Shown one piece after another: positions 14,508 through 22,994 of a DNA stretch of 22,994 nucleotides; positions within the stretch are counted from its first letter, which is position 1, and each line of letters begins with the position of its first letter. This DNA comes from a virus, in IMG/VR virus record IMGVR_UViG_3300035162_000404, positions 1-22,994 of that record; one strand, 5' to 3'. Position numbers and translations under genes: made by a program. The notes under the pieces are model-generated. The model saw nothing but the letters and a program-made list of their open reading frames with translations, made no database searches and was not told where the DNA came from.

Positions 14508-14708
14508 ATGGCTATAGTTAAACCACACCACGCAAACAATTATTTATCAAATAGAATGGGTATACCGGCATTCGACGATACTCAAATGGTATATACTGGA
14601 GCACTACTTAGCTCTGTTATATATTCTTTGGGTGGAGTTGCGGTAGCTCAAGTAAATTATACGTACAACGCTGATGACGATATCATCAATATTACGAGGG
14701 TATCGTAA
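14508..14708 (+). CDS. Small hypothetical protein coupled to the 14708 gene (66 aa)
   Basis: SD GAGGTA and ATG at good spacing. The stop overlaps the next start as TAATG, so translation of the two is probably linked. The protein has a polar start (MAIVKPHHANNYLSN) and a weakly hydrophobic middle (GALLSSVIYSLGGVAVAQVNYTY), too polar to call a membrane segment. Unrecognised family. The junction suggests an accessory subunit, chaperone or attachment peptide for the large protein downstream. Confidence 0.72.
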   Translation: MAIVKPHHANNYLSNRMGIPAFDDTQMVYTGALLSSVIYSLGGVAVAQVNYTYNADDDIINITRVS

Positions 14709-15799
14709 TGTCCCATAATCAAGTTAACATAGTAAATTTTCAAAACGGTGATGTAGTACCATCTGCTATTATTGGACCAAAAACTACAGTAATTCAAAAG
14801 ACCGCACTGACAAAAACACTAATAGATTCCTTAACGCCTGTAACGCTTCCAGATATGACTATGGTCGGCAGAACTGGACATTTCCTTGTTTCTTTTAATG
14901 GTCAATTTACGATTAAAGATACTTCAAGTATAACAGCAAGCTCTGAAGTAGATTTGATAGCTTTATACGCAGAACTTACAGGTCTTACAGCAACAGTAAC
15001 AAATCACGCTGCGGTGTATGGTTCTGAAACTTTAGGACCAGGCGTATATCATCAGCCTGCTGCTTCAAGTATCGCAGGTAATTTAACTTTAGACGCTGGT
15101 GGTAATGCTAATGCATTATTCGTATTTCGATGTGTTGGAGCTTTTGCTACAGGAGCATCAACAGAAATAATACTAACTAATGGCGCAACTAGTAATAACG
15201 TATGGTTTGTGTCCGGAGGCGCGAGTAGTACTGGAGCAAGTACTATTATGAGGGGTAACCTATTAGCAAACCAAGCTGCTGCTAGTACTGGTGCATCTAC
15301 TCAAATGGAAGGCAGGCTTATGACTGTTAACGGAGCTGTTGGTATTGGAGCTACGAGCACATTCACAACTCCAACTGGAACTAGTGTATCGGATCTAGGT
15401 AGTTTTCTAAATGACTTTTCGATATTTGCTGGAGCTGGATCTATATCAAATACTGGCGCAAGTGTAATTTCAGGTAATATAGGTACTGACTTTGGTAGTA
15501 TTACTGGATTTGAAACAGCCACAGTAAATGGAATAATGTATCCTGGAGCACTTGCTTCTTTAGGCAAAGTATATTGGGGTATATATATTAATGGAACGCT
15601 AGCTCCACACACACAACGTTCAGCAACAAGATCGTATTTAGCTATTGGAACTGAATTCCCAATGATTTTAAGTTCAATGATAAGCGTAACAGCTGGCCAA
15701 ATAATTAGCATTAGAGCATATGCAACGATTGGTGAAGTACTAGTTGAACAATCTAAGACTCTTGTAATAGAACCAATTGCCAACGTTGCTTTCTTATAA
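14708..15799 (+). CDS. Composite virion-type protein: permuted ice-binding-like (DUF3494) domain inside a jelly-roll
   Basis: Residues 72-222 look like the C-terminal part of a DUF3494 ice-binding domain: DLIALYAELTGLTATVT, TLGPGVY (108-114), LTLDAGGNANALFVF (126-140), then a beta-solenoid with repeated TGAST turns at 148, 175 and 194 and GATST at 214. Residues 229-280 look like the N-terminal part: DLGSFLNDFSIFAGAGSISN, TGASVISGNIGT, SITGFETATVNGIMYPG. The order is therefore reversed relative to the family. Flanking segments 44-69 (LPDMTMVGRTGHFLVSFNGQFTI) and 285-356 (GKVYWGIYINGTLAPHTQRS ... EQSKTLVIEPI) read as two halves of a phage jelly-roll domain. No signal peptide. The late promoter implies a virion surface protein. 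Domain calls come from pattern recognition, not a profile search. Confidence 0.78.
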   Translation: MSHNQVNIVNFQNGDVVPSAIIGPKTTVIQKTALTKTLIDSLTPVTLPDMTMVGRTGHFLVSFNGQFTIKDTSSITASSEVDLIALYAELTGLTATVTNHAAVYGSETLGPGVYHQPAASSIAGNLTLDAGGNANALFVFRCVGAFATGASTEIILTNGATSNNVWFVSGGASSTGASTIMRGNLLANQAAASTGASTQMEGRLMTVNGAVGIGATSTFTTPTGTSVSDLGSFLNDFSIFAGAGSISNTGASVISGNIGTDFGSITGFETATVNGIMYPGALASLGKVYWGIYINGTLAPHTQRSATRSYLAIGTEFPMILSSMISVTAGQIISIRAYATIGEVLVEQSKTLVIEPIANVAFL

Positions 15800-18480: not shown

Positions 18481-19542
18481 ATGAAAATAGCTATACTCAA
18501 CGACACTCACTGTGGTGTCAGAAATTCTTCTGATATATTTTTAAACTATCAGGAACGATTTTATACTGAGATATTTTTTCCATACTTAAAAGAGCATGGA
18601 ATTACAAATATCTTACACCTAGGTGATTACTATGAGCATAGAAAGTTTGTTAATTTCAAAGCTCTTAACGCCAATCGTAAACATTTCTTAGAACCAATGC
18701 GTGAGATGGGTATTACCATGGATATTATTCCTGGCAACCACGACGTATACTATAAAAATACTAACGAACTATGCTCTCTTAAAGAACTTCTTGGTTACTT
18801 CACTTCCAACGTTAATATCATCATGAAACCAACAGTATTAGATTACGATGGTTTAAAGTTTGGTGTATTACCATGGATTAATAACGCAAACTATGAAGAA
18901 TACACTAAATGGGCTATGACTTGTAACGCGTCTTTCCTTGGAGCTCATCTTGAGTTAAAAGGTTTTGAACTTATGGCTGGTGTAACTAATCCTCATGGTA
19001 TGAACGCTGATATATTTTCCAGATTCGAAAGTGTATTAACTGGTCATTTCCATACTAAATCTAGTCAAGGAAACGTTCATTATCTAGGCAATCAGATGGA
19101 ATTTACTTGGTCTGATTGTGATGATCCTAAGTACTTCCACATCTTAGATACTGAAACTCGTGAAGTAACTCCAGTACGTAATCCAATTACAATGTTTAAG
19201 AAAGTAATTTACGATGATACTAAGACTGATTATAATAAAGTTGATGTCTCTGAATTTGAAAATAAATTTATTAAACTTATTGTTGTAAGTAAAAGCGACT
19301 TATACATGTTTGATAGATTTGTTGATAGGTTACAAAGCATAGAAACTCATGAGCTTAAAATTGCTGAAACCTTTGAAGAATACCTAGGTGACAGTGTTGA
19401 AGATGATAAAGTTTCGCTTGAAGATACTGGAGTCTTATTAGATACCTATGTTGACGCTGTTGATACTGAATTAGATAAAGATCATATTAAAGTTGAATTG
19501 AGAAAGCTTTATACTGAAGCTCAAAACTTGGAGATAGTGTAA
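18481..19542 (+). CDS. 47: Recombination nuclease subunit gp47 (Mre11/SbcD-like)
   Basis: Calcineurin-like phosphoesterase that with gp46 resects DNA ends for recombination-dependent replication and host DNA breakdown. Metal motifs in order: NDTH (D8, H10), LGDYYE (D49), GNHDVY (N86, H87), GAHLE (H155), GHFH (188-191). 353 aa against T4's 339. SD AGGA about 10 nt upstream. The C-terminal ~120 residues would be the gp46-binding part. The stop TAA overlaps the inferred non-standard start of gene 46 by one base (TAATC), and GGAG within its last codons serves gene 46. Confidence 0.93.
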   Translation: MKIAILNDTHCGVRNSSDIFLNYQERFYTEIFFPYLKEHGITNILHLGDYYEHRKFVNFKALNANRKHFLEPMREMGITMDIIPGNHDVYYKNTNELCSLKELLGYFTSNVNIIMKPTVLDYDGLKFGVLPWINNANYEEYTKWAMTCNASFLGAHLELKGFELMAGVTNPHGMNADIFSRFESVLTGHFHTKSSQGNVHYLGNQMEFTWSDCDDPKYFHILDTETREVTPVRNPITMFKKVIYDDTKTDYNKVDVSEFENKFIKLIVVSKSDLYMFDRFVDRLQSIETHELKIAETFEEYLGDSVEDDKVSLEDTGVLLDTYVDAVDTELDKDHIKVELRKLYTEAQNLEIV

Positions 19543-21257
19543 TCATACATTTTAAATCAGTCTCTTGGAAGAACTTTCTTTCAACGGGTAATGACACAAT
19601 TAAAGTACAATTAGATAAAACGCCATCAACACTCGTAGTAGGTTCAAACGGAGCTGGTAAATCTACGATGTTGGACGCTCTATCTTTTGGTCTATTCGGT
19701 AAACCTCATAGAGATATTAAAAAAGATCAGTTAGTTAATAGTATTAATAAGAAAGGTACTATTGTTGAAGTTGAGTTTAACGTTGGTAATTCTGAGTTTA
19801 AAATTCATAGAACTATTAAGCCTGGTAAGTTTGAGATCTATCAAAATGGCAATATGATCAATCAGTCTTCAAATGCTCGTGATTATCAGAAATTCTTAGA
19901 ACAGAATATACTTAAGCTAAATCATAAATCATTCCATCAGGTTGTGGTATTAGGTAGTAGTTCGTTTATTCCTTTTATGCAATTACAAGTTGGCCAACGT
20001 AGAGAAGTTATTGAAGATCTATTAGACATTAATATTTTTAGTAAAATGAATTCATTATTGAAAGAACGTAATTCTAAGATTAAAGAAGAACTATCTGAAA
20101 TAAACCATTCATTAGATTTATTTAAGTCTAAAATAGAAACTCAAAACAAATACGTTAAAGACTTACAATCTATTAATAAAGACATGGTTAAGTCTAAAGA
20201 AGATACTGTAAAATTATATGAAATCGAAGTTAAAGATTTAGTTAATGATTCTCAAACTCAAGGGAAAAACCTAACTAGTCTAACCGAAATTCAAAACGAT
20301 AAATACAAGACTATTAATTCAGAAACTTCTAATATTAAATCAAAAAGTCTCGTTTTTAAGTCTCGCATTAAAGATTTAGTATCAAATGCTAAGTTCTTTG
20401 AGAATCATGAACATTGTCCAACATGTGATCAAGATATAGATGAACCTATTAAAATAGATAAATTAAACAAAATTAAATGCGACGCTGCTAATATTCAAAA
20501 ACAAATGGCTGAATTAGATGTACAATCTAATGTAAACACCAATGATGTTACTGAATGTCAAAACGATATGCAAATATTATTAGATAGACAACGTCATATA
20601 AATTCTAATAATGATAAGATCACAATTGTTCAAAGAGAAGTTGAAAGACTACAAAAAGAGATTAGTGTATTATTACAGTCTTCAGGTGATATTAAAACAG
20701 CTAAATCTGAATTAGATTCTTTGCGTGATTCTAAAGATACTGTAACTGAAAAGAAGTTACAATATGTAGAAGAAAGAACGTATAACGAAGTAATTGGTGA
20801 AATGCTTAAAGATACTGGTATTAAAACTAAAGTCATTAAACAATATTTGCCAGTTATGAATCGACTTATTAATAACTACCTTCAAGTCTTAGATTTCTTT
20901 GTTGCATTCCATCTCGACGAAAGCTTTACAGAAACTATTAGATCTCGTCATAGAGACGCATTTAACTATACATCGTTTAGTGAAGGTGAAAAACAACGTA
21001 TAGATTTAGCTTTATTATTTACTTGGAGACAGATTGCTAAGATGAAGAACTCAGCCGCAACTAATCTTTTAGTATTGGATGAGACATTTGATTCTTCGTT
21101 AGATCATGATGGTATTGAAAGTTTAACTAAGATTCTAAATACTCTTGAAGATGGTACTAATGTCTTTATTATATCACACAAAGGCGACATATTAGAGAAC
21201 AAGTTTAGATCTAAGATTGAGTTTATAAAAGAAAGAAACTTTTCCAAGATTAAGTAG
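19542..21257 (+). CDS. 46: Recombination nuclease subunit gp46 (Rad50/SbcC-like), non-ATG start
   Basis: SMC-type ATPase partner of gp47. With the start at 19542 the protein is 571 aa (T4: 560) and begins IIHFKSVSWKNFLSTGND, which aligns with the family N-terminus. Walker A GSNGAGKST at 34-42, Q-loop region VVVLGSSSF, coiled-coil arms with the CPTC zinc hook at 292-295, signature SFSEGEKQR near 478-486, Walker B LLVLDE near 509-514. The first in-frame ATG (19668) lies after Walker A and would give a dead protein. Between the upstream in-frame stop (19515-19517) and that ATG there is no ATG, GTG, TTG or CTG. ATC at 19542 sits 8 nt after GGAG and overlaps the gene 47 stop, so it is the likely start; ATA at 19545 is the alternative. 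A base error is not excluded. Confidence 0.88.
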   Translation: MIHFKSVSWKNFLSTGNDTIKVQLDKTPSTLVVGSNGAGKSTMLDALSFGLFGKPHRDIKKDQLVNSINKKGTIVEVEFNVGNSEFKIHRTIKPGKFEIYQNGNMINQSSNARDYQKFLEQNILKLNHKSFHQVVVLGSSSFIPFMQLQVGQRREVIEDLLDINIFSKMNSLLKERNSKIKEELSEINHSLDLFKSKIETQNKYVKDLQSINKDMVKSKEDTVKLYEIEVKDLVNDSQTQGKNLTSLTEIQNDKYKTINSETSNIKSKSLVFKSRIKDLVSNAKFFENHEHCPTCDQDIDEPIKIDKLNKIKCDAANIQKQMAELDVQSNVNTNDVTECQNDMQILLDRQRHINSNNDKITIVQREVERLQKEISVLLQSSGDIKTAKSELDSLRDSKDTVTEKKLQYVEERTYNEVIGEMLKDTGIKTKVIKQYLPVMNRLINNYLQVLDFFVAFHLDESFTETIRSRHRDAFNYTSFSEGEKQRIDLALLFTWRQIAKMKNSAATNLLVLDETFDSSLDHDGIESLTKILNTLEDGTNVFIISHKGDILENKFRSKIEFIKERNFSKIK

Positions 21258-21367: not shown

Positions 21368-22994
21368 ATGAATAACTCAAGCTTACCGAAGCTCCTAGCC
21401 AAAGAAAACATCACTATCAGACATGGTAACTATCAGACGCCATGGTTTGATATCAAAAACAGAGTCCTTGGTCTTCCAATATGGAAAGATATGGGTAAAG
21501 ACGTTTACGATTTATTTATTGGTCATGAAGTTGGCCACGCATTAGAAACCCCATATGAAGGTTGGCATGACAGCCCAGAAAAACTAGCTGGATGTCCTAG
21601 ATCTTATATCAATGTTATAGAAGACTGTAGGATCGAACGAAAAATCAAAGATCGTTACCCTGGTTTAGTTGGTCCATTTAGTAGAGCTTATAGCAAGCTT
21701 TATAATGATGACTTCTTTGGCACTTCAAACATCGACTTATCAAAACTTAAAATCATAGATAAAATCAACTTACAAGCAAAGGTTGGTTCTCATTGTGAAT
21801 TAGAATTCAATGAAGAAGAACAAGTCTTTATGAATCGAGCTAACGCAACTCAAGACTTCCAAGAAGTATTAGAATTAGTTAAAGATATCGTAGCATATGA
21901 TATGTCTAATCAGGAAGAAGAACCAGAAGAAGAACCAGAAGAAACAAATGATTCAGAAGAAACAAATGATTCGCAAGAATCAGATAATTCAGAAGAATCA
22001 GATAATTCAGATAATTCAGAAGAATCAGAGGAATATCAAGATGGCGATCAAGCTGAAGATGAAGAAGAAAGTCAAGATGAAGATGAAGTTGAAGACCAAC
22101 CTAAGGTGTCTGATGATGATGAAGAAAGCGGAGACGGAAACCTTACAGATGATCCCGAAGAAGCCGGATCTTATACTGGCTTTGACCGCGATGAGTTAGT
22201 TTCTGTAACTGATGAAGCTTTTAGAGAAAACGAAGATTCATTATTAGACGTTGACGATAAAGGCGTTCAAATCCTTGGCATAGAAGACATCAACAAAGAA
22301 CTTAAAAAAGAAATAATTATTCCATTTTCTGAACTTAAGGCACAAAGAGAATTACGGATGTTGCAGCTGGATAGCTATCATAATACTGAATTAACTAATC
22401 TTAACGCATCATATCCTAAGTATATCAAAGACGTTAAGAGAAGCGTTGGAATTGCTGTTAAAGAGTTTGAAATGCGAAAGGCTGCGACGCAATGGGCTAG
22501 AGCTACTACAGCTAAGACTGGTGTTATCGACGTTAATAAACTACATTCATATAAGATTTGCGAAGACATATTTAAGCAAACTACTAGATTACATGATGCT
22601 AAAAGTCATGGTATGATTATGTTAGTCGATTATTCTGGTTCTATGTATGACTCATTACCTAAAGTTTTAGAACAACTAATTCACTTAGTTTTGTTTTGTA
22701 AGCAAGTCAATATACCATTTGATGTTTACGCGTTTACTACAACTAATCATAAATTAAATTATCGCGCGCTTAGAACATCTGGTTTACTAATTGATGGTGA
22801 TATGGATTTAGAAGAACTAGCGATGCCATTACTTATATCGTCAACTCTTAAAAAACAAGATTTCGACAGTGCTCTTAAAGCATTATATATAAGATCACAA
22901 GGTTCTTCATATCTCATGAGAGATACAATTGCTCCAATTGAAGACTTTGGTTCAACACCTTTAAATCAAGCTTTAATAATGGCTCATAGTTTAG
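21368..22994 (+). CDS. HExxH metallopeptidase-VWA protein (3' partial)
   Basis: Open from ATG 21368 to the window end (542 complete codons). N-terminal Zn-peptidase-like motif IGHEVGHALE (H53, E54, H57) followed by NVIEDCRIE at 82-90, whose acidic pair is a candidate third ligand. Residues ~182-262 are an acidic, Ser/Asn-rich low-complexity linker coded by tandem repeats. A von Willebrand A domain follows: LVDYSGSM at 419-426 gives the DxSxS MIDAS, and GSTPL at 528-532 supplies the MIDAS threonine. The architecture resembles DUF2201/CobT-like metallopeptidase-VWA proteins, which often act with MoxR-type AAA+ ATPases; no such ATPase is in the window. SD GGAAAGGG. The substrate is unknown. Its host-type promoter suggests early or middle expression. 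Confidence 0.85.
   Translation, partial: MNNSSLPKLLAKENITIRHGNYQTPWFDIKNRVLGLPIWKDMGKDVYDLFIGHEVGHALETPYEGWHDSPEKLAGCPRSYINVIEDCRIERKIKDRYPGLVGPFSRAYSKLYNDDFFGTSNIDLSKLKIIDKINLQAKVGSHCELEFNEEEQVFMNRANATQDFQEVLELVKDIVAYDMSNQEEEPEEEPEETNDSEETNDSQESDNSEESDNSDNSEESEEYQDGDQAEDEEESQDEDEVEDQPKVSDDDEESGDGNLTDDPEEAGSYTGFDRDELVSVTDEAFRENEDSLLDVDDKGVQILGIEDINKELKKEIIIPFSELKAQRELRMLQLDSYHNTELTNLNASYPKYIKDVKRSVGIAVKEFEMRKAATQWARATTAKTGVIDVNKLHSYKICEDIFKQTTRLHDAKSHGMIMLVDYSGSMYDSLPKVLEQLIHLVLFCKQVNIPFDVYAFTTTNHKLNYRALRTSGLLIDGDMDLEELAMPLLISSTLKKQDFDSALKALYIRSQGSSYLMRDTIAPIEDFGSTPLNQALIMAHSL
21914..22011 (+). repeat. In-frame tandem repeats coding the acidic linker
   Basis: Three adjacent doublets: a 12 bp unit GAAGAAGAACCA (21914-21925, 21926-21937), an 18 bp unit GAAGAAACAAATGATTCR (21938-21955, 21956-21973), and an 18 bp unit AGAATCAGATAATTCAGA (21976-21993, 21994-22011, perfect). 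A decayed copy follows to about 22029. All units are multiples of three, so length change keeps the frame. Confidence 0.85.

Follow-up and report, generated by a model that had tools for sequence, protein, structure and literature searches.

Gene 46 of the viral record IMGVR_UViG_3300035162_000404, which encodes a Rad50/SbcC-like ATPase (gp46), is very probably intact and translated from an AUC codon at position 19542, by re-initiation after gene 47 that is aided by a GGAG Shine-Dalgarno (SD) word, and it would represent one case of a recurrent state. The window, i.e., the whole stretch of DNA analyzed here, comprises positions 1–22,994 of that record; the junction under study lies within 18,481–21,257, and all features of the junction are located on the + strand. 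That gp46 has a near-cognate start is well supported by the sequence comparisons presented below, which also indicate that, among the T4-like phages of environmental metagenomes, this gene has acquired an AUU or AUC start on many occasions, the window being one case. Codons AUU, AUC, and AUA are jointly referred to as AUH, and ATG, GTG, TTG, and CTG as NTG.

Gene 47, encoding an Mre11/SbcD-like nuclease subunit of 353 aa (18481–19542), starts with ATG and ends with TAA (19540–19542), and its product matches Pfam Metallophos (E 2e-05) and the SbcD-like PHROG 100 (E 2.8e-94). The frame of gene 46 is preceded by an in-frame TGA at 19515 and stays open to the stop at 21255–21257, which gives 571 codons when it is read from ATC (19542–21257). 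No ATG, GTG, TTG, or CTG is present in this open reading frame (ORF) between the stop at 19515 and the ATG at 19668–19670; this had been claimed in a sequence-only reading of the same DNA, and our re-reading of the frame agrees. The near-cognate codons in frame are ATC 19542, ATA 19545, ACG 19584, ATT 19599, ACG 19620, and ACG 19665. Counted from ATC 19542, the first ATG is residue 43 and adjoins the Walker A motif GSNGAGKST (19641–19667), and the 42 codons 5' of it (19542–19667) contain the conserved N-terminus together with this motif, also as previously noticed. The protein read from ATC matches PHROG 77, an SbcC-like phage family, over residues 2–570 (E 6.4e-157), as well as Pfam AAA_23 (E 2.1e-17, from residue 7) and SMC_N (E 4.8e-13). 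Having a P-loop SMC/AAA_23 domain with Walker A and an adjacent Mre11/SbcD-like gene 47, it can be assigned to the T4 gp46/SbcC-Rad50 family.

The ATC codon (19542–19544) overlaps the stop of gene 47 by one nucleotide, the A, forming TAATC (19540–19544), the position expected for a coupled gene pair, and GGAG (19530–19533), near the end of gene 47 and still inside it, is separated from ATC by 8 nt. The overlap and the GGAG spacing described earlier proved correct. The junction thus combines the lack of a canonical in-frame start, the start column of the homologues, and an SD word at functional spacing.

In line with the earlier suggestion, the junction was compared in related phages, and ATC stands in the relatives' ATG column. 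Alignments with the 80 closest gp46 relatives from IMG/VR begin at residue 1 or 3, and the start column has ATG in 79 of them and ATC in one (L033); because of these 79 ATG codons, the ATC column can be considered the true start column. A scan of IMG/VR with a strict pattern for AUH at this column revealed six contigs (L158, L156, L159, L114, L160, and L157). L158 belongs to the window's lineage, and since it shows 5 synonymous (and no nonsynonymous) differences within 609 nt of gp46, it is a sequence separate from the window. L156 and L159 represent another lineage (the gp46 of L156 is 75% identical to that of the window) and also have TAATC, which places this junction in four contigs of two lineages. 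Across gene 47 and gp46, L156 shows about 99–100% identity with L090/L008, and in L090 the two genes are separated by a 94-aa ORF and gp46 begins with ATG. At the sites differing between the window and L090, L156 equals L090 up to −7, the window from −4 to +33, and L090 again from +42. From this pattern, a stretch no longer than 46 nt that includes ATC and is identical in L156/L159 (maximum extent 19537–19582, informative sites 19539 to 19574) appears to have moved between lineages and displaced an insert-bearing junction. No near-identical DNA of the window was found in phage records.

With a looser pattern, the IMG/VR scan yielded 45 contigs; 41 of these show ATC or ATT as the first codon of gp46 and no in-frame upstream NTG (CTG included). 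All 41 contigs encode gp46 homologues, a gp47 homologue is located upstream in all except L293, and the genes are open over 567–578 codons wherever the contig is long enough. The counts leave out the four contigs with upstream NTG (L287, L299, L319, and L325, with L287 restored for the cassette count only), a copy of the window (L081), and L279, which is the same contig as L306; junctions identical over the compared stretch were counted once. In this way, the 41 contigs and the window gave 31 distinct junctions: 21 with ATT, 10 with ATC, and none with ATA, although 21% of the isoleucine codons of the genes are ATA (p 6e-4, calculated on rows that are not independent). The recurrence of AUC and AUU suggests that a start codon considered almost forbidden is in repeated use. 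AUH is a known kind of start; its repeated use in phage recombination genes was not met in our literature searches, which covered open-licence papers.

The second line of evidence comes from the SD signal, defined as a word of at least 4 nt at a spacing of 5–10, a test independent of how the AUH starts were found. Such a word is found ahead of 30/31 AUH starts, as against 25/186 for NTG (p 8e-15), and the difference holds for the 26 junctions discovered after an initial test on five (p 1.7e-12). By codon, the word was present before ATC in 10/10, ATT in 20/21, TTG in 9/9, GTG in 1/5, and ATG in 15/172 cases, while the background at internal ATC/ATT codons of NTG-started gp46 genes was 359/6307. 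The commonest arrangement is that of the window, GGAG at 8 nt (15/31 AUH gp46 starts). The SD is therefore stronger and better spaced in AUH starts than in their AUG relatives, which would fit compensation for a weak start codon. RNA structure at the junction was not common to the window (z −2.1) and L156 (z +0.5).

Substitution patterns point in the same direction. In the first 42 codons, the ratio of nonsynonymous to synonymous substitution rates (dN/dS) was 0.05 for the pair L292/L304 and 0.08 for L288/L309, both being ATT–ATT pairs, so these codons 5' of the first ATG position are, to judge from the ratios, under purifying selection. The whole-gene dS is 1.19 for the former pair and saturated for the latter, and ATT is kept in both members of each; the retention of a codon that is one base change from ATG would favour some selected role. 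Together, the independent contigs, the purifying selection ahead of the first ATG, and the strong and well-spaced SD support the idea put forward in the sequence-only reading that gp46 is initiated at a near-cognate codon overlapping the gene 47 stop.

Several points weigh against this interpretation or its breadth. The AUH patterns were restricted to genes with Ile as the second codon and with set residues further downstream; the counts given above are thus of pattern matches and do not measure frequency. One of the 31 AUH junctions lacks an SD word by the same measure, and the SD test assumes that the host has the usual 16S tail. In named phage records no AUH start of gp46 was found (0/14, all ATG), and searches with three AUH-started gp46 proteins returned relatives below 60% identity, except one record at 60–80%. 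Repeated origin is supported by a quick tree of 208 gp46 proteins built without the start residue, on which ATH versus NTG required 17 changes (at least 15 forced by the starred branches, and 29 with shuffled labels); the figure is rough, because some branches are long and junctions may be swapped between lineages, and it gives no firm number of independent origins. Proteins below 200 aa were excluded from the trees, and from the first tree those below 450 aa (with L158 and L159 kept) and rows below 57% identity.

As for the mechanism, termination of gene 47 would occur at the UAA that overlaps AUC, the terminated ribosome would be kept on the message by the GGAG word, 8 nt ahead of AUC, and it would then re-initiate on AUC, decoded by the ordinary initiator tRNA. 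We infer that the codon used is AUC rather than the adjacent AUA, that re-initiation rather than fresh 30S binding is involved, and that gp46 output is lower than it would be with AUG. In E. coli, re-initiation is promoted by the SD and reduced by excess initiation factor 3 (IF3), according to one report (PMC2268962), and in vitro, weak third-base pairs, e.g., AUU with anticodon CAU, fare worse as IF3 rises, as stated in another (PMC10158994). Because of these precedents and that of sigR (discussed below), lower gp46 output and IF3 sensitivity would be expected.

Other explanations of the junction were weighed against initiation at AUC 19542. The most trivial is a sequencing or assembly error at 19544, with TAATG as the true junction, and ATG is indeed the usual codon at this site (79/80 loci). 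However, the same C recurs in L158 and, with different flanks, in L156 and L159; moreover, the sequence across both ends of the L156 tract is present in neither the window nor L090, and because of this absence a simple assembly chimera of those two would be inadequate for L156. A base error is very unlikely in the light of these sequences, and on account of the three contigs sequencing error was rejected as extremely improbable. A start at ATA (19545–19547) or at another near-cognate codon is more difficult to dismiss, since ATA is also of the AUH type and also in frame; it is nevertheless improbable, as it is ATC that occupies the relatives' ATG column and has the modal SD spacing of 8 nt (ATA is 11 nt from GGAG), and ATA was found at the start column in 0/31 junctions. 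It could also be proposed that full-length gp46 is not made at all, the gene decaying or giving only a short form from ATG 19668, the first canonical start. The short form would lose Walker A, and decay is hard to reconcile with a frame open over 571 codons, with 5 synonymous and no nonsynonymous changes between the window and L158, and with the dN/dS of 0.05–0.08 in the ATT–ATT pairs, which makes this reading very improbable. Finally, the two frames are one apart and an SD-like word is present, which would allow a gp47–gp46 fusion by programmed frameshifting with GGAG as the stimulator. No slippery heptamer was seen before the gene 47 stop, though, and in other AUH lineages the distance from the gp47 stop to gp46 ranges from 46 to 1961 nt, for which reason such a fusion cannot be general; on these two grounds it was rejected, its probability being minimal.

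A separate question is how the ATC codon entered such junctions, and here the near-identical loci L033/L114 (ATC; L114 is the contig of L033) and L032/L116 (ATG), with 98.6% identical gp46 DNA, give the best-resolved case. Upstream, L114 and L032 are closely similar as far as nt 14 of the original gp46, where an insert begins in L114; it contains a 172-aa ORF and a 55-aa ORF, followed by AAGGAG, 9 nt, and ATC. After the insert, gp46 of L114 has 8 changes within its first 33 nt (nt 3–33) and then none to nt 302. The insert therefore lies within the original 5' end of gp46 and is followed by a rewritten copy of that end. The 172-aa ORF has the pattern LDHI(V/I)PI...N...LPW...N, which we take to be an HNH nuclease motif; its profile match is phrog_5104 of unknown function (E 5.4e-18), and its homologue in L318 shows a weak match to the phrog_59 HNH endonuclease (E 0.0013). 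A search with this ORF returned nine contigs; L114 and L279 are the two in which the match lies at a 47/46 junction, and gp46 starts with ATC in each, L279 having been found via the nuclease and not via the start codon.

In total, an HNH-like cassette is located just upstream of gp46 in five near-cognate lineages (L114, L289/L315, L318, L306, and L287) and at 0/186 of the compared NTG junctions. The gp46 start is ATC in L289/L315 and L318, and ATT in L287, where the end of the nuclease ORF contains a GTG 13 codons ahead of the ATT. L160 has no nuclease ORF but contains a 17-codon ORF beginning with the usual first gp46 codons, followed by AAGGAG and ATC, and L157 (ATT) carries an unrelated, opposite-strand HNH/NUMOD3 ORF in the junction gap. 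Inserts accompany 7/10 ATC starts versus 38/194 NTG starts (p 0.001, counts entered by hand). At the window's own 47/46 junction no nuclease ORF was found, and it does not qualify as a homing-cassette junction.

Some further observations concern the junction and its inserts. In L289, L318, and L114, the cassette's second small ORF terminates in IY.KRR, and the codons for this terminal part form the GGAGG or AGGAG before gp46. The 1961-nt gap of L318 holds a GIY-YIG/NUMOD3 endonuclease ORF in addition to the HNH-like one, i.e., two homing-type genes at one junction. Among 199 distinct 47/46 junctions, 144 are ATGA-type overlaps and 40 have at least 46 nt between the genes, and because of the latter the junction is an insertion hot spot. 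In L001, L085, L090/L008, and L063, an ORF of 75–95 aa separates the two genes; it starts as TAATG on the gene 47 stop, and overlaps the gp46 ATG with its end; its C-terminus is conserved (NQSWLKTKVANWLG.KY-like) and its middle part varies. The L090 copy matched neither Pfam (at E below 0.01) nor PHROG.

Two proposals concerning the origin or purpose of the AUC start were considered. According to the first, the near-cognate start would be a by-product or a protective mark of homing, the cassettes bringing a rewritten gp46 start. Besides the insert followed by ATC and the 8 changes in L033/L114 as compared with L032, it draws on the distribution of cassettes between near-cognate and NTG junctions, on the relic of a gp46 start with AAGGAG and ATC in L160, and on the association of ATC starts with inserts. 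However, the window has neither cassette nor relic and most ATT lineages are without an insert, so homing can explain at most a part of the pattern; in addition, the HNH assignment derives from the motif and weak profile matches (phrog_59, E 0.0013), and it was the AUH pattern that led to three of the five cassette loci. As an explanation of the start, homing is rather unlikely, and that ATC protects against the cassette nuclease is a guess. The second proposal, which follows the function suggested in the sequence-only reading, adds a purpose to initiation at AUC, namely that a weak, IF3-sensitive start keeps gp46 low or times it. It can refer to infC and Streptomyces sigR as working precedents (PMC5472188), to the reduction of E. 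coli re-initiation by excess IF3 (PMC2268962), and to the conservation of ATT over saturated dS. On the other hand, the SD strengthening looks compensatory, most relatives manage without a near-cognate start, and such starts are also found on gp47 and on a third gene.

The use of AUH on other genes is based on the following data. A strict gp47 pattern gave no AUH contigs, and at first this favoured a restriction of AUH to gp46, an idea that was dropped after a looser pattern revealed 22 contigs, 15 of them gp47-like (14 without in-frame NTG and one with CTG only). The 14 gp47-like genes (in L326, L329–L332, L334, L337, L339, L340, L342, and L344–L347) have an ATT or ATC start with no in-frame upstream NTG, mostly with GAGG or GGAG about 8 nt upstream and an in-frame stop one codon before the start. 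Furthermore, the homologue of the gene at window position 21368 starts with ATT after AAAGGAG in L020, L128, and L135, with no ATG, GTG, or TTG in frame upstream or in the next 60 codons, and the frame of the L020 copy is open over 723 aa. Since AUH starts are not confined to gp46, setting its level against that of gp47 cannot be their general role. Regulation through a deliberately weak start thus seems possible, albeit doubtful. A combined view is tentative and, on balance, not favoured: AUU/AUC on phage Mre11–Rad50 genes may be recurrently selected and partly mobile, an HNH-like cassette carrying a rewritten gp46 5' end (SD, ATC, and about 11 recoded codons) that would restore the gene and destroy the nuclease target, while empty ATC alleles like that of the window could spread homing-proof. 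In the open-licence papers searched, a link of HNH-like cassettes to near-cognate starts was not met.

Some of these features have parallels in known systems. Gene 26 of T4 is reported to have an internal AUU start (Nivinskas 1992; not found in our literature search); that case would likewise be an AUU in a T4-type phage, but it concerns an internal start of a shorter product, whereas AUC would be the main start of gp46. The infC gene starts with ATT in E. coli and ATC in Streptomyces, and so resembles gene 46 in having a near-cognate AUH start on a real gene; it encodes IF3 itself, however, closing an autoregulatory loop, while gp46 is a phage recombination ATPase without a known IF3 link (PMC5472188). 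The same source describes Streptomyces sigR, with a GTC start, a strong SD (AGGAGGTG), a coupled partner gene, and repression by IF3. The sigR–rsrA pair is similar in joining a rare start and a strong SD in a coupled pair with mutually binding products, and differs in that its start is GTC, the genes are cellular, and IF3 control is known by experiment, the gp46 case being known from sequence (PMC5472188). SD compensation was described for GUG and UUG starts, with one AUG-to-AUU switch in 61,358 reconstructed AUG starts, in Belinky 2017 (PMC5622118); the combination of a weaker start codon with a stronger SD is common to both cases, although here AUH recurs in one gene family.

With regard to the cassettes, in fungal mitochondrial mobile ORFs (Allomyces and Glomus) an endonuclease ORF brings a replacement gene end (PMC3630166). 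As in L114, the endonuclease ORF is inserted with a divergent duplicate of a gene part, but it is the C-terminus that is replaced there, and the N-terminus and start codon in L114, whose arrangement looks like a 5' counterpart of the fungal case. Free-standing homing endonucleases with flank co-conversion are well known in T4-like phages, together with the split nrdA of Aeh1; here too the insertion is in or beside an important phage gene whose function is kept, and a change of start codon class is not described in the available text (PMC2988022). General background on homing genes can be found in PMC10448857.

Apart from the junction, an ORF at 14708–15799 in the structural-gene region of the window matches the Ice_binding domain of Pfam (PF11999, E 3e-29), an unexpected cargo for a T4-like phage.

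In practical terms, gene finders limited to ATG/GTG/TTG would place the start of such genes internally and miss the Walker A region. The natural near-identical pairs L032/L033 and L090/L156, which differ mainly at the junction, constitute ready-made controls. If these starts work as proposed, SD strength and coupling would overcome the discrimination against AUH often enough for evolutionary use in phage recombination genes, and a start codon travelling with a homing cassette would, if true, give selfish elements a novel means of preserving the gene that they target.

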